Notes under the pieces: model-generated
The model's input: the letters and a program-made list of their open reading frames with translations, nothing else
Told to the model about the DNA's origin: nothing
The model's database searches: none
Assembly: GCF_002252755.1 (NCBI RefSeq)
Contig: NZ_NHOY01000028.1
Location: forward strand, 1-47,629
Length of the DNA: 47,629 bases
Direction of reading: 5' to 3'
Origin: Halorubrum sp. Hd13
Lineage (GTDB): Archaea > Halobacteriota > Halobacteria > Halobacteriales > Haloferacaceae
Position numbers and translations under genes: made by a program
Shown: in pieces, positions 17,769-46,670 of the stretch
How positions within the stretch are numbered: the stretch's first letter is position 1
How the letters are laid out: each line of letters opens with the position of its first letter

Positions 17769-17783
17769 GAGTCTTGTTGAGCG

Positions 17784-18310
17784 ATTGACATTCTCTTCCG
17801 CGTAAACGCGGAGGAATCCCGAGCGGTGGGAGTTTCAGGTTCGCAGTCTAATTACCGGACTCCCAGTCCTTTCGGGCACGGGTAGTCCCACAGTGTCGGA
17901 CTGGTGGACTGCTGGCCATGCCAACTGGCCGTTACCCCTATCCTCGGCCGTGTACGGCGTCCCAGTGTTGTTTTTGCCACGGGGACGCTGGCAGGCATCA
18001 CCGGAGTTGGGGATATCGTCTGACTCGCTTCGAGCAGTCAACACAGACACACCCTTCGAGGATGTAGCGTTCACCGACTGCCCTTTCAGATACTGCCTCG
18101 TTACGCGGGCGGACAGGCCGCCTCTGAAGGACGGTTCGGAATCCGCTCCGTTCCGACCGATTCCTAACTACGTATAGAGCGGCCTGTCAGTTAAACCTCG
18201 GTATATGAAACTCGGTACAGACGTTCGGCCAGTGGATTGCTTCCCACCATGTCGGCTTCATCACCCGCCTAAAGGCGGGTGTATTCGCCTTCCAGTCTGT
18301 ATAACCTCGA
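17784..18310 (-). repeat. Hairpin-rich IS200/IS605-derived element, copy A
   Basis: A noncoding relic of about 0.5 kb. The left end has TTGACATTCTCTTCC, a hairpin CCGCG-TAAA-CGCGG, then GAATCCCGAGCGGTGGGAGT (17814-17833) and TTCAGGTTCGCA, nearly identical to copy B at 20490. Inside are stems GGCCA/TGGCC (around 17920), GGCGG/CCGCC (around 18113) and TTCGGAA/CCGTTCCGA (around 18140). The right end has TGTCGG and a long stem CACCCGCC-TAAA-GGCGGGTG (18262-18281). Read on the minus strand, the left end encodes a PPLGIPP-like ending seen in haloarchaeal IS1341-type TnpB tails, so this is probably the 3'/RNA-specifying end of such an element. Confidence 0.55.
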
Positions 18311-20410: not shown

Positions 20411-20489
20411 GTATATACCGTGTCTGACGATACAAAAAAGCGTCCGGGTTACTGACTCGCAGGACCGATCCACATGGCACTTCCCAACT

Positions 20490-20990
20490 ATTGACATCCT
20501 CCTCCGCGTTCACGCGGAGGAATCCCGAGCGGTGGGAGTTTCAGGTTCGCAATCGTGAATCCGATTTTTTCTTCGAGAAATCGTTTAACCCATCGCAAAA
20601 CGGTGGGTGACTGGCGGTGCCAAGCCGCCGTTACTTCTATCCTCAATGCCGTTGACTCATCTGTTGTTTTTCCCAGGAGGGAGTCGCTAACACGTCGACA
20701 GACTTGGTACACTTGGACTTGCTCAACCGACAGGCACAGACGAACGTTTCTGGCATTCGCGTTCACCGTGTTGGTATTTCGAGTATTGTCTCGTTAGCGG
20801 CGGCGAGGCCGCCTCCCAAGGCCGTTCGGAATCGCTCCGTTCCGACCTGATCTTACTCTTTAGTACGAATTGACACCATTTGAAACTGCGGGCTTTGGAA
20901 ACTCGGGAATGCCACCGAACAGTGGTTCGTGTAGGGTTCTGTCGGATTCGTCCTGCAGCTCAAGCCGTAGGTATTCTCCTCGAATCTCTA
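20490..20990 (-). repeat. Hairpin-rich IS200/IS605-derived element, copy B
   Basis: Starts with TTGACATCCTCCTCCGCG and a perfect stem CCTCCGCG/CGCGGAGG, then GAATCCCGAGCGGTGGGAGT (20520-20539), identical to copy A. Internal stems are CGATTT...AAATCG near 20570, GGCGG/CCGCC (about 20612-20628), GGCGG/CCGCC (about 20800-20815) and TTCGGAA...TTCCGA (about 20826-20845). The right end has TGTCGGATTCGTCC and ATTCTCCTCGAA. On the minus strand a frame of 92 codons ends NLKLPPLGIPPRERGGGCQ, the usual tail of haloarchaeal IS1341-type TnpB. The nuclease body is gone. Copies A and D share the same stem order. Confidence 0.55.
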
Positions 20991-26895: not shown

Positions 26896-27819
26896 TCAAC
26901 GTTCCCCGACTGGCCGGAGTGACGCTTCTGGAACTTCACCCCGCGTGACTCGAACCCACAACATAATCGCCACGATGAGTACGGCCGTCGGGAGCAGTAA
27001 GACGACGATGAGATCGGCACCGAGATCGAACGGTCGGGTGAGTCGGAACGCCGCCGGATACCCGCTCTCCGGTTGCCCGAATACGACCGACGTCCAGAGA
27101 TTGGTCGAGAAGTGGATGCCGACCGGAAGCGCGAGACTGTCGGTGAGCACGTACGCGAGACCGAAATACAGCCCTCCGACCACCGCCTGTACCACAGCAA
27201 CCGACGCGGAGAGTCCCGCCGCGCCAGCGTTCAAATGAATCGCTCCGAACACGAGAGCCGATACGACGACCGCGCTCCCCGTGGCAGCCGGCCTCGAGAC
27301 CTGGCGAGACGTAAGCCCGACAACGAGCTCACGGATCAGTACGCCTCGAAAGATGAAGTCCTCCCACAACCCGACAATAACGAACGCAGCGGCCGTCGCT
27401 CCGATCGCGAGTCCGACGGTCACAGGGTCGCTGAAAACCCCCATTGACCACGAACTAACGATCCTCCCGCTCCCGGTAGCGAGAATCGCGGCCGTCGAAA
27501 CAGCCTGAAACAGCGCGCCGATTACGGCACCGCCGGCGAAATCATTGAGCCACTGCCGACCCAGAGAGAGCCCGTACGCGGCGGGGGTAGTTTCGAACGC
27601 GTAGGATATGACGAGTACCACCGCTGCTACCCCACAAAGCATTGGAAGTTGATTCGGAAGGTTAGTCAACACGTCCGGAGTTGAGAGTTGAGCGAGTACC
27701 AGCCCTACAGCGGCAAATGTCGCGACGAACATCACCGCTGCTACGACCACTCGCACCACCGCCCCGCTGACCGATACCTCGGACCCGATACGACTGACTG
27801 GTCGCAAGCGTGTGCTCAT
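26896..27819 (-). CDS. CPBP family intramembrane protease
   Basis: A 307-aa protein with about eight membrane segments (MSTRLRPVSRIGSEVSVSGA). The first motif reads LWEDFIFRG (Glu153, Asp154, Arg158), an EDxxxR form of the usual EExxxR. The second is VFGAIHLNAG (His about 191) and the third is VGIHFSTNLW (His about 235, Asn about 239). The Glu-to-Asp change is conservative and seen in some members, so activity is still plausible. The winged-helix gene at 28190-27846 lies 26 bases upstream on the same strand, so the two are probably an operon, with the regulator controlling its own protease. Confidence 0.85.
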   Translation of the reverse strand: MSTRLRPVSRIGSEVSVSGAVVRVVVAAVMFVATFAAVGLVLAQLSTPDVLTNLPNQLPMLCGVAAVVLVISYAFETTPAAYGLSLGRQWLNDFAGGAVIGALFQAVSTAAILATGSGRIVSSWSMGVFSDPVTVGLAIGATAAAFVIVGLWEDFIFRGVLIRELVVGLTSRQVSRPAATGSAVVVSALVFGAIHLNAGAAGLSASVAVVQAVVGGLYFGLAYVLTDSLALPVGIHFSTNLWTSVVFGQPESGYPAAFRLTRPFDLGADLIVVLLLPTAVLIVAIMLWVRVTRGEVPEASLRPVGER

Positions 27820-27845: not shown

Positions 27846-28190
27846 TTAGCAGCTCAGACTGATCGTCGCGTCGATGTCACCACCATCGAGCGACACGGAG
27901 AGATGTTGCGCGGAGGCGCTGAACTGCTCTCGGTGGTGGCCGTCAGGTGCGACGTAACACTCGCTCGTGACCAGTCCGGCGTCCTGAAGCTCATTGAGAC
28001 GCCGGTAAGCCGTCGGCCGCGAGACATCGGCCGCCTGCGCGACGGCGCGTCCGCCGCGAGGCTGCTCGGAGACTGCCTCGAACACTCGCCGGGTGTACTC
28101 GTCGCCGAAGAGGTCGAGCAGCTCTTCGGTCGATAGCTCGTCTGTCGGTTCCTCAGTCCGGTCGCCGCGCGACTTGTGTCGCACTGCCAT
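27846..28190 (-). CDS. Winged-helix transcriptional regulator
   Basis: A 114-aa protein (MAVRHKSRGDRTEEPTDELS). Residues about 25-75 form an ArsR/DUF7344-like winged helix: LLDLFGDEYTRRVFEAVSEQ, GGRAVAQAADVSRPTAYRRL and NELQDAGLVTSECYVAPDGH. A beta-rich tail with SVSLDGGDIDATISLSC follows. It binds DNA as a small dimeric repressor or activator by family analogy. It precedes the CPBP gene by 26 bases and lies downstream of the BAT-like regulator at 28338, which has the same orientation. Confidence 0.82.
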   Translation of the reverse strand: MAVRHKSRGDRTEEPTDELSTEELLDLFGDEYTRRVFEAVSEQPRGGRAVAQAADVSRPTAYRRLNELQDAGLVTSECYVAPDGHHREQFSASAQHLSVSLDGGDIDATISLSC

Positions 28191-28337
28191 GTGGCTACGA
28201 TGTAACGGAACACGCTTGGTGGAATATGCTCAGTATTCAGAGTCTCCGCAGCGAGGATATCTAACTATCCAGACTCCCCTTCGTGTGAGAGCAAGCGGCC
28301 GCATGTCGATTGGCCGCGACCCGGCGAATCCCGACCG

Positions 28338-29882
28338 CTATCCGCTACTGTCGTCGTGTTCGTCGTAGAACGCGTCCAGCAGCTTTCGCTGGCTCGCCCG
28401 AAGGTGGTGGAGCAGCGTCGATCCGGTGATTCCGAGCGATGTCGCAACCTCCTCGGCCGTACTTCCACGCGGGGAGGTGAAGTAGTCCGCGAGATAGGCC
28501 GTCCGCAAGACGGTCGCCTGTCGGTCAGTAAGCCGGTCGTTCAGATCGTTTCGAAATTCCCGCGTGGTCGTCGGCGAGCGGGTTTTGTCCTGTCGTGCGA
28601 GAACGGGTGCCGGTCCGTCATCGTCGAGCACGTTTGCCACCCGACGCACGTTCGTGTCGGGAGACAGTTCGACGATCAGCTGACTGTCATCGCCGTTAAA
28701 CACCGCCGTCTGTATCGTCGCACCACGGTTGATTGCCGCAACGAGCGGAACTTCCTCACCCAGCGTCACCTGGATCCGGCCGCGCTCAGCGTCCGATTGA
28801 CGAATCACACGACCATCCTGCGCACTCGGTAGCGCTTCGGCGGTCTCAACGACGGTGTCCGGATCGGAACCCGATACTGATAGGAAACACGTGAGACCAG
28901 TCTCACTCGGCATTACGGTCCCCTCAAGCGTGAGTTCCGCCTCGCAGGTGTCGCTCACACGTACCAGCGGGGAGTTCTCTGTGAGCCCGAACGTAACCTC
29001 CGTGAGGGTGTCGGAAAACAATAGCTTCCGATTCTGTGTCGCGTTGATCGCGTACCCTGCTAGTTCACCGAGTGTCTCAAAGCTGGCCTGTACGTGATCG
29101 CTGAATGCGGTTTCGGTTCCCGCATAGACACCGACAACGCCGTACACGCTGGAGCCGTACACTAACGGGAGCGCGAACACCGACTGGACTCCGTCCGCGA
29201 ATCCAGCGGCACGAACCGCGTCCGGGACTGATGGATTCTCGCTTAACGATTGTACCAGTTTGGGGCGCTGCTGTTCGACCGCTCGCCGTTCCGGGGTAGC
29301 CTGTCCACTTTTCACTGCCTCGCGGACCGCCGGGAACAGTTCTCCCTGCTCACCCGCAACGCCGCTCATAACGAGTTCGTCGCCGTCGACGGCGTACTCA
29401 CCGGTCCATACGAACCGGTACTGGTCCGATGTCCCCAGTTGGTCCCGGATAGTCTCCATGATCGCGCCCTGAGACGTAGCTCCGACCAACCCCTCAAGCA
29501 CGTCGGCGATCAGAGTATCGACCATTTCGGCCCGCTCGGACTCCGAACGAAGCCGTTCGATCGTTTGCTTGTTGGTGCGTTTTTCAGTGATGTCGGTAAC
29601 GTAGACAGTTGCCGCATCGTCGTCAGGAACAACTGACACTGACAGCCAGCGGTCGACTTCTGGATAGTACTCTTCGAATGCTACATCAGATATCGATGTC
29701 CCTTCGAACGCCTTTGTGAGCGACCCTTCGACCGACTGGGGAAACACCCCAGCAATTGGCTCACCGTCAGGTGTGTCAGTTGTAAGGATATCGGCCGCCC
29801 GATCATTCCACGCGCACACCACCCCATCTCGGACGGTGATAACTCCCATCGGTGCTTCTGCGAGACGATGTTCCAACTCCAT
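28338..29882 (-). CDS. BAT-like regulator: PAS, GAF, BAT and HTH-10 domains
   Basis: A 514-aa soluble sensor-regulator. Domains in order: PAS at about 1-105 (MGVITVRDGVVCAWNDRAAD, VTDITEKR), a coiled linker, GAF at about 120-280 (VLEGLVGATSQGAIMETIRD, SVFALPLVYGSSVYGVVGVY), a BAT-type domain at about 285-430 and a C-terminal HTH-10 (LNDRLTDRQATVLRTAYLAD, YFTSPRGSTAEEVATSLGIT, STLLHHLRASQRKLLDAF). This is the architecture of bacterio-opsin-activator family proteins, which respond to redox or light-related signals. No opsin gene is in the window. It could control the winged-helix/CPBP pair downstream. Confidence 0.92.
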   Translation of the reverse strand: MELEHRLAEAPMGVITVRDGVVCAWNDRAADILTTDTPDGEPIAGVFPQSVEGSLTKAFEGTSISDVAFEEYYPEVDRWLSVSVVPDDDAATVYVTDITEKRTNKQTIERLRSESERAEMVDTLIADVLEGLVGATSQGAIMETIRDQLGTSDQYRFVWTGEYAVDGDELVMSGVAGEQGELFPAVREAVKSGQATPERRAVEQQRPKLVQSLSENPSVPDAVRAAGFADGVQSVFALPLVYGSSVYGVVGVYAGTETAFSDHVQASFETLGELAGYAINATQNRKLLFSDTLTEVTFGLTENSPLVRVSDTCEAELTLEGTVMPSETGLTCFLSVSGSDPDTVVETAEALPSAQDGRVIRQSDAERGRIQVTLGEEVPLVAAINRGATIQTAVFNGDDSQLIVELSPDTNVRRVANVLDDDGPAPVLARQDKTRSPTTTREFRNDLNDRLTDRQATVLRTAYLADYFTSPRGSTAEEVATSLGITGSTLLHHLRASQRKLLDAFYDEHDDSSG

Positions 29883-30060
29883 TCACGTAGGGACCTCCTC
29901 GTTCTATCTGTGTTTTCCCGTCGGCTAGTTATACGTGTTGTCCGGTTAAACCGCAGTTTACAACTTAGATACTGGTCACTGACACCGGTGTTGTTCTGTC
30001 GTTGTTTCAGAGTCAGCAACCCAAGAAGTGGATTATATGTATAGTTGTAGAATACAGGGT

Positions 30061-30480
30061 ATGCCCTCGAACACCCAAGGCCGCCGAATTTCTCAAACCT
30101 GGCGCGTTGTGATTCTCGGAACAATAGCTGCACTACCCGCAACTGCTGTAATAAATTGGCTTCCGAACTCTGAAGCGACTGCTGGTGGCGGGGCAATAAT
30201 AGTTGGGCCAATGGTCGCGGGCGCCATCGCAGCTAAGCGCTCGGTAGGGCCGAGTGCTGCTGGGCTCCGTGCTGGCTTTCTAGGTGGTGTGGTTGCGGTA
30301 TCTGGATTTATCCTTACAGAAGCCACGGCTGTAGCGTGGTCACTCAACACGATCGTGTTCTTCCTTATCGCCGTCGTGATGATTCTGTGTCTCTCGCCGG
30401 TGTTCGGCCTTATTTTTGGTCGGATTGGTGGCTGGGCAGCAAACACTGTCGGTGGTTTCGGAGTCGACCAAGCATCGTGA
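30061..30480 (+). CDS. DUF5518-like small membrane protein
   Basis: A 139-aa protein. The ATG at 30061 (MPSNTQGRRISQTWRVVILG) is chosen because the extra upstream codons (MDYMYSCRIQG) lack a hydrophobic or conserved look. About four membrane segments: VVILGTIAALPATAVI, GGGAIIVGPMVAGAIAAKR, AGFLGGVVAVSGFILT and TIVFFLIAVVMILCLSPVF. The GGxIVGPMVAGAIAA glycine pattern is the hallmark of DUF5518-type haloarchaeal proteins. Function unknown. It is the last ordinary gene before the mobile-element region. Confidence 0.62.
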   Translation: MPSNTQGRRISQTWRVVILGTIAALPATAVINWLPNSEATAGGGAIIVGPMVAGAIAAKRSVGPSAAGLRAGFLGGVVAVSGFILTEATAVAWSLNTIVFFLIAVVMILCLSPVFGLIFGRIGGWAANTVGGFGVDQAS

Positions 30481-30703
30481 TCAAGTGATAATGAGTTGTT
30501 CGCTTGCTTTGCTCCCGGCTTGTTAATTAAAAAGGATGACTTCGCCCCCAACTCCAGCTAAATAGGGGTGAACATGAGCCAATAGCCTGCGTGCGCCGTG
30601 ATTGGCACAGTCGCATTTTTTGTCCGCTCGTAGGCACCAGCCGCAAGGATAGCTAAAATACTCGTGAGGAGTATTGACACAATCCCACCCGAAAAGAACA
30701 GAT

Positions 30704-31587
30704 GGCCCTGTTGAAATCCTCTGAAACTGACAAGTATCGCGTGCCGAATAGAGAGGATACAGTCAGCCGGGGGCTACGATATTTCACCATCTAGATCCCG
30801 AACTAACCGACAGAACGTGTCTGTGAATGCGACATAGAACGCTTATATTGGGAGTATCCGAACCTCGACTTACCAGTTCAGTCTCCTACTGAAGTCTCAG
30901 TCTGACCCAAACACTGCCCGAGTCAGTGCACCACCGTAAGCAAGCCGTGAACCGGCCCACAGTGCACCGAGCGTGACGCCTATCGCCAAGAGGTATGGAA
31001 TTGGCTCTGGGAGCCGGCTGCTTGCTATGCGGGCGAGCCGGTCCGCTAGAGCGAAACCACCGAACCAAACTATCAAAAAAGCGATGTGCTGGTGAAGAGA
31101 CTTCTGTCGGCGTGCGTGGCGGTAACCGACGACGAGAAAGCCTACGAGCAGCAGGACGGCTAGGATTACGAAGGTGAGAGAGCGGAGTTGTCCATCGAGC
31201 GCAAACGCCGAAGGGATGCCGATAACCACTGCGAGAACGAAGATCGTCTGGGCAATAAGTCCGATATCTATCTCAGTATTGGAGGGCTGTTCGGTCACAA
31301 ATTGCGGTCAAGAACGATGAAAACATAAAATTTCGCCACACGAGATGAGTCCGTTCATCCAAATTGGCTACATTCTACGACACCGACTAGTCCGTCTCTC
31401 GTGACGCCCACCGTTGTCAAAGGTACTCCGCTGAATATACATGCTGTACGACTACGCCGAATCAAAAAATTTGTCACTTTATAAGCATTTCAACAGAGCC
31501 AAATATTTCGTCTAATCTGGTGTATGAGTCCCCTGTATTGACCACGACCGGATCAATATATCACTTACTGAGGATTTCAACAGAGTC
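30704..31587. mobile_element. Non-autonomous element E1 with 8-bp target duplication
   Basis: Ends read GGCCCTGTTGAAATCC (30704) and GGATTTCAACAGAGTC (to 31587), which are inverted copies of the family terminal repeat GGCTCTGTTGAAATCC. They are flanked by GAACAGAT at 30696-30703 and 31588-31595. The target is a CPBP gene. Instead of a transposase it contains one membrane-protein gene (31298-30897). A second end (ATTTCAACAGAGCC, to 31500) lies inside, so the element may itself be nested. The right 55 bases share the conserved sub-terminal sequence with GGTCAATACAG seen in the other copies. Confidence 0.8.
30897..31298 (-). CDS. Passenger membrane protein of element E1 (133 aa)
   Basis: MTEQPSNTEIDIGLIAQTIF begins at 31298. 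Four hydrophobic segments: IGLIAQTIFVLAVVIGIPSA, SLTFVILAVLLLVGFLVVGY, HIAFLIVWFGGFALADRLA and YLLAIGVTLGALWAGSRLA. Loops are short and positive on the inner side (RHARRQKSLHQH). No enzyme motif and no transposase similarity are seen. The gene lies wholly inside the target-duplicated element, so it travels with it. Family unknown. Confidence 0.65.
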   Translation of the reverse strand: MTEQPSNTEIDIGLIAQTIFVLAVVIGIPSAFALDGQLRSLTFVILAVLLLVGFLVVGYRHARRQKSLHQHIAFLIVWFGGFALADRLARIASSRLPEPIPYLLAIGVTLGALWAGSRLAYGGALTRAVFGSD

Positions 31588-31939
31588 GAACAGATGTATT
31601 CCACGGAAAAGGAGACCGCCGATAAGCACCCGACAGGGCGATCCGATCGCCGGTTCCAGCGCATCGTGGACTACCCCTCTGTATAGGATCTCTTCCATGG
31701 GTGTCATAGCTGCGAACATGATCACCAATCCCGGGACAATGATCTCCGGGTGGTCGAAGAATACCCGCCACGTCGCAGTGCCACCGTGCGTGGTGTAGCT
31801 CAACCCGAGCATTGGCAATACCGGGGTCACCGCTCGCACCGCCATCTCGTACCCGATCGGTATGAAGCCAATCCACGCAATCCCTTCAACTGAGGGCATC
31901 TGAATCCGGTCCAGCGGATTATAGTCGTCACGCCATCAA

Positions 31940-32600
31940 ATGTAAACACAGAAGAATCCCGAGCGGTGGGACTTTCAGGTTTACGGAAATCAAGGAGAAA
32001 GCCCCGTGCTTTAGCGCGGGAATGAATCCGACAAACCCTACACAACCGACATCATCAACTAGCCCGGCATCGAACATAGTAGCAAGCCAATCGCGTAAAG
32101 TATCAATCGGAAGACTCGGGGTCGCTTCCCGCCGACACGGACGGTTCCACGCCCACCACTTCGGTTCACAACGAGGTGGGGAGTGCGTGGTTGAGACTCG
32201 TTCGCCGTCCTCACAGAACCCGTAACCCCGCTGGGACGGGCAGTAATGCTCGTGTACGGGAGGGGGTGACGGCTTAACCAAAACACGCCCCGTTCGCGGT
32301 TGCACTTCGCCACGAAGCTGTGTGGCGGAGTACGGTCGATGGCACGACCCGTGTCACGCTCCTCGAAACGAGGGGCGTGAGTCCTCGCGTTCGCACAGTC
32401 CGTTTGGGACTGGGCGCAGGGAACGCCACAAGCAGGGCGACTCGCAACGAGTCAGCGTCACCACGCGCTCACCGCCCTGACGTGGAGCGCACGAACCCGG
32501 TACTCCCTTCGTGGGAGGAAGTTGCCCTCGGGGGCTTGGGAACGGCCCGATGCCCCACGAGGGAATCCTCGCCCTTCAGGGCGGGGAGGATGTCAAAGTC
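31940..32600. mobile_element. Composite of IS200/IS605-type TnpB 3' ends (region C)
   Basis: On the minus strand 31950-32050 gives TGTCGGATTCATTCCCGCGC, TAAAGC, a GGGGCTTTCTCC stretch and AACCTGAAAGTCCCACCGCT followed by CGGGATTC. That is the 3' RNA-specifying end of haloarchaeal IS1341-type elements; the minus frame ends NLKVPPLGILLCLHLMA. On the plus strand 32450-32600 ends GCCCTTCAGGGCGGGGAGGA then TGTCAA, the opposite type of right end, coding an ...ESSPFRAGRMSK tail. So two TnpB tails lie back to back with no intact nuclease. The left border abuts the truncated CPBP gene at about 31935. Confidence 0.5.
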
Positions 32601-32891
32601 CGCTTATCCTGCTTCTCACCGGGTCAGATATATACTATCAAATTCTACGTTTCCGCACTTGAAACACCCTATTAGCCATTATTAACCCGATTATCGTATA
32701 GAAACACATGATACTGGAACATTATCAGCCACCGTCTCTTCGCAGAACCGTTTGTTACTTGATAATCGGTGTAGGTTGCTGTGGTTCTAATCAAATTAAC
32801 TACTCTGCCGCTGTCACCCGAAGATCACATGCTCTCAGTGTAGACAGGCAGTCACTAACGGAGGTACAGTGCTGAGGATCGGCTACCATTC
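32601..32891. other. AT-rich intergenic region
   Basis: About 290 bases between relic C and the next gene. It has stretches such as GATATATACTATC and ATTATTAACCCGATTATC that could hold promoter elements. One open frame of about 55 codons from 32708 (MILEHYQPPSLRRTVCYLII) exists but has little protein-like character, and I do not call it. Confidence 0.3.
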
Positions 32892-33671: not shown

Positions 33672-35072
33672 ATGCGGAGTGCGCCCTCCACAGTACCGCA
33701 CCGAACGACCTCCGACTTCGCAATTATCGCAGCAAATATGATTCCCCTAGCCGGCGTACTCATCAGCGGCTGGAATATCTGGACCCTCCTGGCGCTCTAC
33801 TGGATTGAGGCTTTTAGTACGGTCCTTCTCGGTGCGTTAAAATCGCTGTTCGCGAAGCAAGGTTCGCCTGATCTCGTTGGACAGCGGGAGCCGCTCCATG
33901 AGTTACGACACAAACGAGGTGGATGGCATTTACTCCCGACGCTTCCACCGGTGTATCCACGAAACGTGCCGTTTGCGCTATCTATCCTCGGCCTTTGGAT
34001 ATCTACTATCGTCCCAATCACGCTCCTGTCATGGATTACGGTCGAAACCGGAATAACAATTTCATGGCCGGTCGGTGTGAGCATCGGTGCGCTGTTGATT
34101 GCGCAGGTAATCGAGTTTCGTGTCGGCTATCTCGAGACCGGGGAGTACGAGACGGTGTCTGCCCGCGAGATTCTTCAGCGACCAACCCAGCTCACGATGG
34201 CGATGATGCTACTCGGGATGGTCGGACTGACAGCGAGTCAGGCGGCAGGTGTCGCTGTGCTCAGTGGATTTGTGCTCGTGAAAACCATCCTTTCGGTATC
34301 GGGGGAATCTACTGGACCGATCGCATCAGGCTTGCGAGCACTTCTTGATCGGTTTGGTGACGACGATGAACTCCGTCGTCCGCAGCCGGAATCTGACCCC
34401 GCTGACGGGGATATCCGGGCACGTGTGACGGTCAGCCCGAAAGCGGTACTTCTCGGAAGTACCAGCGCGATACTGCTAACCGTTTTTAATCGTGGCGTAG
34501 CGGTTCTGATCTTCGGAATTATCGCCGCGATCTTCACCGGGAACATCTTCTGGGGCAGTATCGGTCTCTGTATACTTCTCTGTATTATTGCGGTCCGGGT
34601 CGGCAGCTACTACCTCCGATACGGTACCATCGAATACCAGCGACGCGGTAATTCACTGGTTGCGTATGATACAGTTCTTGAGGCACCACAATGGGTGGTC
34701 CCCGTTCACTCACGAACCCGATTTGAAATTGCGAATGCAATTCCTGACCGACTGTTCGATACGGGAACGCTAACGATCTCCAACGTCGATGCGACACCGA
34801 GAAACACGGTCCAATTTGGCCCCGTCCCTAACCTTGATCAAGCGATTGAAACGCTTGATTTGCCAGTCAGGCACGAGGGACGACCTGACAAAGACCCCGC
34901 AGTTGTGGGTGCTGCGCTCGTGTTAACACTAGCTTTTCTCGGAGTACCGACGATGCTTCTTGTGTCTTCGCAGGTGAGTGGAGTGGAGGCGGTTGTGATT
35001 TTGTTGTTACTGGCTCCGTTTTTCGCGATTTTGATCGGTGTTCTCCTGTATGCGATGTTCACGCGGATTTAA
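33672..35072 (+). CDS. DUF6498-type multi-pass membrane protein
   Basis: A 466-aa protein. The first 240 residues have about six membrane segments, with ILISGWNIWTLLALYWIEAF, STVLLGALKSLF and VIEFRVGYLETGEYETVSAR; the LYWIEAFSTVLLGALK stretch is what I associate with DUF6498. After an acidic loop (DDDELRRPQPESDPADGDIR) two more helices precede a PH-like beta segment (YGTIEYQRRGNSLVAYDTVL, QWVVPVHSRTRFEIANAIPD) and two final helices. The PH-like part suggests binding of a membrane or peptide ligand. Function unknown. Its end is followed by the element starting at 35089. Confidence 0.7.
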   Translation: MRSAPSTVPHRTTSDFAIIAANMIPLAGVLISGWNIWTLLALYWIEAFSTVLLGALKSLFAKQGSPDLVGQREPLHELRHKRGGWHLLPTLPPVYPRNVPFALSILGLWISTIVPITLLSWITVETGITISWPVGVSIGALLIAQVIEFRVGYLETGEYETVSAREILQRPTQLTMAMMLLGMVGLTASQAAGVAVLSGFVLVKTILSVSGESTGPIASGLRALLDRFGDDDELRRPQPESDPADGDIRARVTVSPKAVLLGSTSAILLTVFNRGVAVLIFGIIAAIFTGNIFWGSIGLCILLCIIAVRVGSYYLRYGTIEYQRRGNSLVAYDTVLEAPQWVVPVHSRTRFEIANAIPDRLFDTGTLTISNVDATPRNTVQFGPVPNLDQAIETLDLPVRHEGRPDKDPAVVGAALVLTLAFLGVPTMLLVSSQVSGVEAVVILLLLAPFFAILIGVLLYAMFTRI

Positions 35073-35140
35073 TGAATTAGGGTTCTGTGGCTCTGTTGAA
35101 ATACTCAGAGAGTTACATGTTCGCCGTGTGATTCGACGAG

Positions 35141-35962
35141 ATGAAGCCCCTCCCGAAGTCGCAGATTCTCCGTTTTACTGAGAAGGCGATCCATCTGGCG
35201 CGTCGAGCGGTCTCTCGATACTCCTCGAAATTCTCTAAACACCGCTACACACTTCTCCAACACGTTGTTCTGTTGTGTCTCAAAGTTCGGAAGAGTACGA
35301 CCTACCGTGACCTGCTTGACGAACTGATCGAGATGCCACGCATCCGCCGGACTCTTGCATTAGCCGAACTTCCTACGTCATCAACGCTCTGTAAGGCGTT
35401 TAATCGACTTGATATGGTCGTATGGCGAGTCTTATTGACTCTCTCAGCGACACTGCTCCCGACAAACGGAATCGTCGGGATTGATGCGTCAGGGTGTGAC
35501 CGCAGTCACGCCTCGAAACATTATACGAAACGAGCTGAACTCACGATTCAGCAGCTCAAAGTGACGCTGTTGGTTGATGCGAAGGTGAACGCAATTCTCG
35601 ATCTCCACGTGACGACGACTCGGAAACACGATAGCCAGATTTCCCCGTCGTTGATCAAGCGTAATCCCGAGAGTGTCGGTATTCTGCTCGGTCATAAAGG
35701 CTACGACGACCAGAATATCAGACGACTTTGCCGTCAACACGAGGTTCGCCCACTGATCAAACATCGTGAATTCACGTCACTTCATCGGGCATGGAACGCA
35801 CGCTTAGACACTGATCTCTACGGCCAGCGGAGTCAATCCGAGACAGTCAACTCTACGCTTAATCGGAAGTTTGGTGCGTTTGTCCGGTCACGACGCTGGC
35901 GGAAACAGTTCTGGGAACTCACCATCGCCTGTCTCATTCATAATATAGACCGATCACTCTGA
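35141..35962 (+). CDS. IS5-type transposase with likely active-site substitution
   Basis: A 273-aa DDE transposase (MKPLPKSQILRFTEKAIHLA). The first Asp is in IVGIDASGCDRS (Asp115). The Y-x2-R-x3-E signature is LYGQRSQSE, with Glu234. The HYTKRAELTIQQLK and LVDAKVNAILDLH segments place it in the haloarchaeal IS5 group. The second Asp, normally in ADKGYD, is replaced: the sequence is LLGHKGYDD, with His185 in its place. A single G-to-C change (GAT to CAT) explains it. If this is the catalytic residue the enzyme is inactive, although full-length and otherwise undamaged. Confidence 0.88.
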   Translation: MKPLPKSQILRFTEKAIHLARRAVSRYSSKFSKHRYTLLQHVVLLCLKVRKSTTYRDLLDELIEMPRIRRTLALAELPTSSTLCKAFNRLDMVVWRVLLTLSATLLPTNGIVGIDASGCDRSHASKHYTKRAELTIQQLKVTLLVDAKVNAILDLHVTTTRKHDSQISPSLIKRNPESVGILLGHKGYDDQNIRRLCRQHEVRPLIKHREFTSLHRAWNARLDTDLYGQRSQSETVNSTLNRKFGAFVRSRRWRKQFWELTIACLIHNIDRSL

Positions 35963-36036
35963 ACGGTCAATACAGGGTATGAATCGGTCAGTACAGAGGA
36001 ACCACTTTTCGGTAGGTATTTTATTCAATTCTGTTG

Positions 36037-36210
36037 ATGTACGATATGGTCTCCCGCGAGAACCAGAAACTAGCCGCCTCTGCTGTGGTTGCCCTCGTTG
36101 TTCTTGTCTCCCTACGGGCATTGACGGATTTTGGACTGTTGTCGAGGTTTACGATTGTCGTCGTCGTTATAATCGTTACGCAGTCTGTTTTCGAACGGAT
36201 GTATCAGTAA
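36037..36210 (+). CDS. Small two-span membrane protein within element E2 (57 aa)
   Basis: ATG at 36037 (a second in-frame ATG at 36046) to TAA at 36210 gives MYDMVSRENQKLAASAVVAL, VVLVSLRALTDFGLLSRFTI and VVVVIIVTQSVFERMYQ. Two hydrophobic helices flank an LRALTDFGLLSRF loop. It lies between the transposase and the right end of the element, in the position where other copies of this family carry small membrane proteins. No family recognised. Confidence 0.5.
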   Translation: MYDMVSRENQKLAASAVVALVVLVSLRALTDFGLLSRFTIVVVVIIVTQSVFERMYQ

Positions 36211-36333
36211 GCAGTCACATTCTATCAGCTGATTCAGGATTCATTTAGAGAAGATATCGAAGCTCTTGTGCTGACTACATCCTCTGTATCTCCCACGCCA
36301 ATCCTATCAGTTCTTAAGTATTTCAACAGAGCC

Positions 36334-41407: not shown

Positions 41408-41709
41408 GGCTCTGTTGAAATCCCATTTTTCAGATACATTCTCACTTGAAACAGCCAGTCGCTGAAGACTGCGCACTGAATGGTTCTGAAATGAGGGGCC
41501 CCGAGTCAGTATCTTCTTGATGCTATATCCTCGAAAGCAGGTATGGTCGGTATAGGGACTATTATTATCGCAATTACGTTCGTCGTCGCAATGGTGGTGA
41601 CTCTGGGTCTACTACTGCGGTTGTTGAAAGACGCTGATGGTCTATGATTCAGCTGTACTGACCGCGACCGGGGCAGAATATATCACTTTCTGAGGATTTC
41701 AACAGAGCC
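41408..41709. mobile_element. 302-bp MITE-like element E3 with 8-bp target duplication
   Basis: Starts GGCTCTGTTGAAATCC (41408-41423) and ends GGATTTCAACAGAGCC (41694-41709), a perfect 16-bp inverted repeat. ACGCTACC flanks it on both sides (41400-41407 and 41710-41717). The left 70 bases match the ends at 45883 and 46033; the right 55 bases match those at 31534-31587 and 46615-46670. It has no transposase. Between the ends lies a 34-codon ORF for a hydrophobic peptide. It must have been moved in trans. Confidence 0.85.
41543..41647 (+). CDS. 34-aa single-span membrane peptide carried by E3
   Basis: ATG at 41543 to TGA at 41645-41647 encodes MVGIGTIIIAITFVVAMVVT followed by LGLLLRLLKDADGL. 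There is one long hydrophobic helix with a short charged C-terminus. A codon-phase argument is not possible at this length, but the ORF fills the only non-terminal part of the element. No family recognised. Confidence 0.45.
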   Translation: MVGIGTIIIAITFVVAMVVTLGLLLRLLKDADGL

Positions 41710-44129: not shown

Positions 44130-44519
44130 GGCTTTGTTGAAATCCTCAGCAGGTGATACGTTCTAAACTAGCTTCGGTCAGTATAAGAAAAGGTCGCATC
44201 AACTCGCGTCATTTGGATCAAAGGCGTAGTAAACGACAGCCATTGTGATTCCCATCAATACTGGCCCAAAACTTCCATCACCCGACAGTAGGAGCCTAAC
44301 AGCAAATACACCCACAGCGGAGACGAGGCCAACGAGGAGGGCATAAGGAACACGAGATAGGCCACGTACGCAATCGTCAAGCCGCTGGTACAGACCCCGC
44401 AGAGTATCCATACCACAATCACCGTGGATGGGTGAATGTGTCTTTCGTTAGAGATACATTCTTTGGGGAACAGGTTTTCAGGCAAGAACCTGTCTGAAGG
44501 GGAGGATTTCAACAAGACC
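44130..44519. mobile_element. 390-bp MITE-like element E4 with 8-bp target duplication
   Basis: Left end GGCTTTGTTGAAATCC (44130-44145), right end GGATTTCAACAAGACC (44504-44519), 14 of 16 bases inverted-identical. GCTTCACG flanks it at 44122-44129 and 44520-44527. The left sub-terminal part (CAGCAGGTGATAC, CGGTCAGTATAAG) is the reverse of E3's right end, and the right one (GGCAAGAACCTGTCTGAAGG on plus) is the reverse of E3's left end, so E4 is the same element in inverted orientation. It carries a 70-aa membrane protein instead of a transposase. Confidence 0.83.
44199..44411 (-). CDS. 70-aa two-span membrane protein carried by E4
   Basis: MDTLRGLYQRLDDCVRGLSR starts at 44411. Hydrophobic stretches VPYALLVGLVSAVGVFAVRL and FGPVLMGITMAVVYYAFD are joined by LLSGDGS. 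The charged N-terminus (ten charged residues in twenty) should stay inside. The gene fills the centre of the element and its 3' end faces the GGTCAGTATAAG inner boundary, as in other copies. No known family is apparent. Confidence 0.6.
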   Translation of the reverse strand: MDTLRGLYQRLDDCVRGLSRVPYALLVGLVSAVGVFAVRLLLSGDGSFGPVLMGITMAVVYYAFDPNDAS

Positions 44520-45882: not shown

Positions 45883-46032
45883 GGCTTTGTTGAAACCCTA
45901 TTCTTTAGACATATTCTCGCCTGAAACAGTCGGTCGATGAGTGCTGCGAACATATCGATCCTGCGCTCAGTCATCTAAGGGGTCGCCACCTAATGTATGC
46001 GACTACTCCAAGAAGAGCGATTAGAACGGACA
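45883..46032. repeat. Solo left end followed by 3' part of a tiny membrane ORF
   Basis: GGCTTTGTTGAAACCCTATT, CTTTAGACATATTCTCGCCT and GAAACAGTCGGTCGATGAGT match the left ends of E3 and of 46033. Beyond it, on the minus strand, codons from 46032 down to TGA at 45971 read LSVLIALLGVVAYIRWRPLR, the C-terminal part of a small membrane peptide that seems to be interrupted by the next element (see the interrupted-ORF finding). Confidence 0.5.
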
Positions 46033-46177
46033 GGCTCTGTTGAAATCCTATTCTTCAGATATATTCTCGCCTGAAACAGCCGGTCGATGAGAGCTGCGTA
46101 TTGACCACTGAGAATTTGTACTGACACAGATGGCGTGTCACAACATCTGTTACGGTGGAGAGAGAATGTAGGGTGAG

Positions 46178-46501
46178 ATGGCAACAAACAACGACAAAAT
46201 CCAGTTCCGGGGGGAAACTGAGAAGAAGGCGACTCAAATTGTCGATCAGATGCGTCTTGGTGGGATCAACGTTAGTGAGCTTGCTCGACAGGGTCTTCAA
46301 GAAAAACTCCGAGAAGTACTCTCGGACGAGGAGAAGATCACTCTCCACCAGCGATACAAGCACGGAGAGCTCTCTGAAGAAGTTGCGGAGATTCTTCTTG
46401 GTGATTCCTTGGAAGAAATTGAGCGGGAGCGGGAAGCCTTCGAGGAGGCTGCGGAGCTTGATACGAGTGGCGTTTCCAGAAGTGAAGATGGTGGACAATG
46501 A
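46178..46501 (+). CDS. VapB-like antitoxin
   Basis: A 107-aa acidic protein (MATNNDKIQFRGETEKKATQ). The N-terminal part IVDQMRLGGINVSELARQGL resembles a ribbon-helix-helix DNA-binding unit, and the rest is a highly charged helix (EIERERE, EEAAELDTS) that would wrap a toxin. I recall such proteins in haloarchaea before PIN-domain genes. The stop at 46501 overlaps the toxin-like start at 46488 by 14 bases, which is standard for these pairs. Because the toxin is cut, the antitoxin stands alone. Confidence 0.62.
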   Translation: MATNNDKIQFRGETEKKATQIVDQMRLGGINVSELARQGLQEKLREVLSDEEKITLHQRYKHGELSEEVAEILLGDSLEEIEREREAFEEAAELDTSGVSRSEDGGQ

Positions 46502-46622
46502 TGTCCGTCATCCAGTTATCGTTGATATAGCTGCACTAATCGCTGCCGCGAACACGGCTCGCTGGTCTCGATTTGCGGGCAATATCCAGCTGACGACGAC
46601 TACTACTGTTAATCTGTATTGA
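46488..46622 (+). pseudogene. N-terminal fragment of PIN-like toxin
   Basis: From ATG 46488 the frame gives MVDNDVRHPVIVDIAALIAA, ANTARWSRFAGNIQLTTTTT and VNLY, then a stop inside the right end of E5. VIVDIAALIAAANTARW matches the start of VapC-type PIN proteins (IVDTSALIA), where the first catalytic Asp lies in the V-D segment. PIN domains normally need about 120-140 residues, so this is truncated and presumably not toxic. Confidence 0.6.
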
Positions 46623-46670
46623 CCGTAATCGGAGCAGAACATATCACTTGCTGAGGATTTCAACAGAACC

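Follow-up and report, generated by a model that had tools for sequence, protein, structure and literature searches.

The window, i.e., the complete stretch of 47,629 nucleotides from Halorubrum sp. Hd13 that was analyzed, contains a CPBP (Rce1-like) protease gene on the reverse strand, which is interrupted just past its second motif by an insertion, designated E1. Features of the interrupted gene and the borders of E1 are given below; L030 refers to the orthologous locus on contig C6 of the Halorubrum genome G039.

30558–30703, reverse strand: CPBP (Rce1-like) protease gene, 3' part, assigned by frame and Pfam PF02517 (profile positions 56–90, E = 0.0029); aligns to L030 1801–1944; stop codon at 30558–30560
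30696–30703: target-site duplication GAACAGAT, 8 bp, left copy; the empty site L030 has it once
30704–31587: E1, transposase-less IS5-type gene cassette, 884 bp, delimited by ends and duplication; not present at the orthologous G039 site
30704–30721, forward strand: left terminal inverted repeat of E1, GGCCCTGTTGAAATCCTC
31501–31587, reverse strand: outer right end segment of E1, with the terminal repeat GACTCTGTTGAAATCCTC at 31570–31587
31588–31595: target-site duplication GAACAGAT, 8 bp, right copy
31588–31945, reverse strand: what is left of the 5' part of the CPBP gene, including the motifs EEILYRG and FRGIH; 89.9% identical to L030 1452–1809 (89% amino acid identity)

The intact orthologue in L030 matched PF02517 with an E-value of 6.8e-14 (52.4 bits, cut-off 22.4), whereas the two halves in the window scored slightly under this cut-off (22.3 and 18.3 bits). 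The preliminary description had counted all three CPBP motifs as present. This applies to the motifs EExxxR and FxxxH, represented by EEILYRG and FRGIH in the window and by EEILYRG and FGGMH in G039, but not to the third. The canonical third motif is HxxxN/D, whereas all three sequences compared carry HxxxW (HAGYW in the window, HAGHW in G039, and HAGYW in G021). Judged by its sequence, the interrupted gene is a CPBP-superfamily homologue, and its protease activity is uncertain. A second CPBP-type protease gene lies 3 kb away (26896–27819) and scored above the Pfam cut-off (E = 2.6e-15).

The two copies of GAACAGAT around E1 are identical, and the termini of E1, GGCCCTGTTGAAATCCTC (30704) and GACTCTGTTGAAATCCTC (31587, reverse strand), form imperfect inverted repeats. 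The borders are therefore exact to the base, as had been proposed from the sequence, and joining the flanks with one copy of GAACAGAT likewise restored the predicted single open frame, in which GGLLFRGIHLF is followed directly by FSGGIVSILL and which ends with HAGYWLMFTPI at the stop codon (30558–30560).

A search at the protein level across 52 Halorubrum genomes yielded one close orthologue of the interrupted gene, i.e., that of G039 (89% amino acid identity). L030 is ~89–90% identical to the interrupted gene and lacks the insert. The flanks of E1 align to L030 1452–1809 and 1801–2503 and join at a single CATCTGTTC, and L030 carries a single ATCTGTTC exactly at the insertion point of E1; the ninth base of the flank overlap is a chance match outside the 8-bp duplication. 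The gene product is intact, comprises 239 aa, and includes FGGMHLFLSGGVVS across the junction. L030 thus agrees with the sequence obtained by rejoining the flanks on one GAACAGAT, which the preliminary description had expected of an empty-site homologue. A relative in G021 (239 aa) is likewise uninterrupted at the E1 site, and the frames of distant homologues in G016 and G034 are open through it, with no insert. As the site is uninterrupted in all four genomes, we consider the empty state ancestral and E1 inserted after the split from G039. Synteny between G039 and the window extends over 27847–31984 at ~89% DNA identity, with a divergence of ~11% over 27847–30704. The insertion had been called recent; this is correct in that it occurred later than the split, but the dating is relative only and no finer.

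The 5' end of the CPBP gene was lost by a separate event, to which the following features relate:

31942–31945: TTAC microhomology where the two sides of a 351-bp deletion meet, from the comparison with L030; TTAC is present at both deletion ends
31942–31984: truncated IS605/PATE-type end, 43 bp; related copies at 17782, at 20484, and upstream of the intact G039 gene
31985–32609: IS605-type relic with a weak HgcC-like RNA match (32493–32609, under the gathering score); no counterpart in L030

The deletion (L030 1101–1451) removed the promoter region and the start of the gene in the window, i.e., ~128 bp in front of the start codon and ~224 bp of coding sequence. It had been suggested that the 5' end was lost to the IS605-type relic. 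The 5' end is indeed gone and the junction lies in an IS605-type end, but the cause is the 351-bp deletion with its TTAC microhomology. As G039 carries a complete version of this end ~128 bp ahead of the start codon of its intact gene, we rejected an IS605 insertion as the direct cause; by comparison of the two loci, the IS605 sequence was a neighbor within which the deletion stopped and not by itself the replacement of the 5' end. Deletions that start or stop at mobile elements were noted in Haloquadratum (PMC3119063). IS605/PATE-type right-end repeats (TTGACATCCTCCTCCGCGTAAACGCGGAGGAATCCC...) are found at 17782–17850, 20484–20555, and 31942–31984 of the window, and also upstream of the intact G039 CPBP gene.

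The interruption of a single protease gene is ordinary; the point of interest is the cassette family behind E1. It had been overlooked in the preliminary description that E1 belongs to the IS5-type cassettes, carries a gene, and has nested right ends (at 31500 and at 31587). Its internal composition is as follows:

30704–30823: left scaffold segment, ~120 bp, with counterparts at the ends of further cassettes (71–79%) but not in the ORF133 cassettes of G017 and G033
30822–31501, reverse strand: passenger core, also present in the ORF133 cassettes of G017 (85%) and G033 (87–92%)
30897–31298, reverse strand: ORF133, predicted four-helix membrane protein, 133 aa, GTG start; dN/dS 0.13–0.25 against the G033 and G017 copies
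31324–31331, reverse strand: TATA-like box TTTTATG, ~26–32 bp ahead of the GTG and in part conserved in G017; putative promoter
31483–31500, reverse strand: inner right end GGCTCTGTTGAAATGCTT, corresponding to the actual right end of the cassettes in G017 and G033

No transposase ORF is present within the 884 bp. E1 has this length because it possesses an outer right end in addition to the inner one, and the inner one is homologous to the actual end of the cassettes in G017 and G033. The left 120 bp derive from another type of cassette than those carrying ORF133. Further copies of ORF133 were found in Halorubrum laminariae R60 (G033, two copies) and Hrr. distributum JCM 10118 (G017). ORF133 is under purifying selection: it is intact in four copies, and pairwise dN/dS values between E1 and the copies of G033 and G017 range from 0.13 to 0.25. 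It is probably expressed from its own promoter. In G017, ORF133 lies in a 741-bp cassette with the duplication AGAGAAGT, for which G037 provides the empty site, with flanking matches overlapping by exactly 8 bp. A single-sequence model of ORF133 predicted four helices at low confidence (pLDDT 66.6), too weak for a structure search. Regarding function, Pfam matches were sub-threshold only (LtrA, E = 1.6e-4, under the cut-off), and NCBIfam gave no match. Carriage of E1-type cassettes by viruses was considered and rejected, as neither a viral contig with the end pattern nor a viral relative of ORF133 was found. An ORF similar to the DUF6498 gene mentioned below lies beside an ORF133 cassette in G033 (contig C20; L010 2292–3179).

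E1 is one of many elements with such ends. Within the window, the end GGCTCTGTTGAAAT occurs 14 times at ≤ 2 mismatches (0.2 expected), and three further elements are delimited by ends of this kind:

35089–36333, forward strand: related IS5-family element with E1-like ends (GGCTCTGTTGAAATACT); transposase ORF 35141–35962, with GHKGYDD versus GDKGYDD in relatives
41408–41709: second family member, 302 bp, duplication ACGCTACC
44130–44519: third family member (390 bp), with a small ORF and the duplication GCTTCACG; related elements in G039 and G011

An empty site for the element at 44130–44519 was sought and none was found. A cassette end pair also surrounds a 109-aa ORF at 46033–46670, with no matching duplication, and a further end lies at 45883. 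In eight Halorubrum genomes, the 17-bp end was counted 24–42 times per genome at ≤ 1 mismatch, figures that refer to ends and not to complete cassettes; reversed-pattern controls gave none. The exact terminal 17-mer is present in 194 of 292 haloarchaeal genomes, covering 60 of the 77 genera of the class. Among the fetched loci, we identified 43 distinct end pairs with an 8-bp duplication (≤ 1 mismatch), and since only 0.09 would be expected by chance, a chance origin of the end and duplication geometry of E1 is excluded. Only one of these 43 elements contains a transposase (L149, IS5 family); most others carry varied genes. The longest ORF was at or above the 95th percentile of dinucleotide shuffles (p ≤ 0.05) in 20 of the 43, so that some short family members may be plain MITEs. 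In L174, one cassette lies within another, each with a perfect duplication. Outside Halorubrum, transposase and passenger occur together in L202, L203, and L205, and transposase-less elements are represented by L197, L198, L199, and L201.

The ends of E1 match those of the IS5-type elements L149, L202, L203, and L205. Transposases located between E1-type ends are 73–86% identical, including that of the window (35141–35962) and those of elements with transposase plus passenger. Based on the transposase profile NF033579, which scored above cut-off for the window copy and L149 (E = 3.8e-65 and 1.6e-57), the mobilizing element is assigned to the IS5 family. The window copy is probably inactive, because GHKGYDD, with H for D, replaces the GDKGYDD of its relatives; its element lacks a matching duplication at 35089/36333. 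Another TIR-sharing transposase gene of the same genome, on contig C98, keeps GDKGYDD, also with no matching duplication. An autonomous element with a perfect duplication and ends matching both cassette end types was found in another species (L149 in G018), not in this genome.

Taken together, we propose, with a probability of roughly 0.88, that E1 is a non-autonomous cassette with a gene of its own and owes its insertion to the transposase of an end-sharing IS5-family element, acting in trans. The transposase (273 aa, NF033579 type) would recognize the conserved terminal GGCTCTGTTGAAATCCT and the subterminal ends, excise the cassette along with the passenger, and join it to a target cut with an 8-bp stagger, by which GAACAGAT would be duplicated and the CPBP gene broken. 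The doubled right end could go back to the insertion of an ORF133 cassette into, or directly beside, a different one, with subsequent use of the outer end by the transposase; by analogy, the cassette-in-cassette arrangement of L174 is a plausible type of precursor. Trans-mobilization is supported by the exact borders, the duplication, the empty sites, the absence of an own transposase, and a TIR-sharing transposase gene in the genome, and furthermore by selection on the passenger and by the occurrence of ORF133 in other species at other sites. We counted against it the GHKGYDD of the window transposase, the missing duplication of the C98 copy, and the finding of the autonomous element in G018 and not in this genome. 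That an IS5-type transposase is the one acting on E1 is what we infer from these observations.

Three other explanations were considered. The doubled right end could also be taken to mean that E1 is a composite in which two separate solo ends enclose unrelated DNA and which was fixed at this site by an IS26-like (IS6) mechanism, and 8-bp duplications and GGC..CTGTTG ends do occur in the IS6 family, which is why we considered this mechanism. It was rejected as extremely unlikely, since the transposases between such ends are of the IS5 type and not IS6, and the cassettes are bounded once per side, with duplications directly at the ends. The length of ORF133, which is borderline against shuffled sequences (p = 0.065 in E1, 0.05 in G017), together with the finding that the ORF exceeds the shuffles in only 20 of 43 elements, counts against a gene-carrying cassette, and short, apparently non-coding members such as 41408–41709 exist. 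E1 might accordingly be a plain MITE, i.e., a non-coding remnant in which ORF133 is a chance open frame. We regard this as improbable, given four intact copies with dN/dS of 0.13–0.25 against E1, a predicted four-helix product, and recognizable genes in other members (DUF998, HicA, PNPOx, and PycTM).

Regarding the direction of the event, precise loss by short direct repeats is possible in haloarchaea, where repeat-mediated deletions are described (PMC3119063). E1 could then be ancestral at the CPBP site and have been lost precisely from G039 by recombination between the GAACAGAT copies. This reading has next to no likelihood, as the distant homologues of G021, G016, and G034 are also insert-free and open across the site, E1 breaks an otherwise conserved domain, and several other elements of the family share the geometry, one of them with an independent empty site.

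The passengers of other cassettes include DUF998 (E = 1.5e-24), DUF5518, PNPOx, and HicA. In G034, a cassette with the duplication GCTTTGTT (L168 4244–6174) contains a Pycsar pair consisting of the cyclase PycC and the effector PycTM (PADLOC, 5.2e-17 and 2.4e-28), which by these matches is a predicted defense system carried as a transposon passenger. A HicAB-like toxin–antitoxin pair is present in 93% identical cassettes at different target sites in two species (L117 759–1517 and L162 530–1288). Several passengers recur in other species or at other sites; pairs that share a passenger at different sites are L117/L162, L169/L175, and L176/L189. Regarding other observations, a creatininase gene of the same genome lies between ends of the E1-outer type with no matching duplication (L004/L079, G000:C79:11237–12326), and a DUF6498 membrane protein gene (33672–35072) adjoins the IS5 element of the window; a DUF6498-like gene is also a passenger of a cassette in L172.

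One conserved end pair with many passengers would account for some of the fast turnover that small accessory genes show in haloarchaea, toxin–antitoxin and Pycsar genes included. Such cassettes are easily overlooked, because they lack a transposase and annotation lists their genes as ordinary hypothetical proteins. A search of the open-licence haloarchaeal literature found no specific description of this cassette series, and the large family of single-gene cassettes across haloarchaea is little-described. With empty sites and a TIR-sharing transposase gene at hand, the idea can be tested in a laboratory haloarchaeon.

Among known systems, the best reading of the sequence is that E1 represents a mobile insertion cassette (MIC), with relatives of the transporter insertion sequence (tIS) type in other genera (for definitions, see PMC3129680 and PMC6542083): it has terminal repeats of an IS family, a direct target duplication, and a passenger gene in place of the transposase. 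MICs, for example MIC231 from Bacillus cereus (Chen et al. 1999, as cited in PMC6542083), likewise consist of IS-type repeats and duplications around a passenger, lack a transposase, and need a related IS in trans. The E1 family differs in being archaeal, in its IS5-type ends, which are distributed class-wide, and in its dozens of passengers per genus, including a defense pair and toxin–antitoxin pairs. The elements L202, L203, and L205 resemble tIS (PMC3129680) in combining transposase and passenger, whereas E1 lacks a transposase and that of its family belongs to IS5. In haloarchaea, the ISH2-type HqIRS32 is a transposase-free element with a non-transposase ORF, described as the only MITE family of Haloquadratum with a likely protein-coding ORF (PMC3119063). 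E1 likewise has a non-transposase ORF and no transposase; however, HqIRS32 is a separate element, whereas the E1 family is a series of unrelated genes on one set of ends. With somewhat less than even confidence, we suggest that single-gene cassettes with common IS5-type ends form a system shared by haloarchaea across the class, and that this system could serve as an integron-like pool of accessory and defense genes and capture new ones by cassette-in-cassette insertion and the use of alternative ends. As with the cassettes of integrons, each is a single small gene, in many cases of the toxin–antitoxin type or of unknown function, and is shuffled among genomes; integron cassettes, however, depend on an integrase acting at attC/attI sites, whereas the E1 family would move by a DDE transposase, with terminal inverted repeats and 8-bp duplications at scattered sites.
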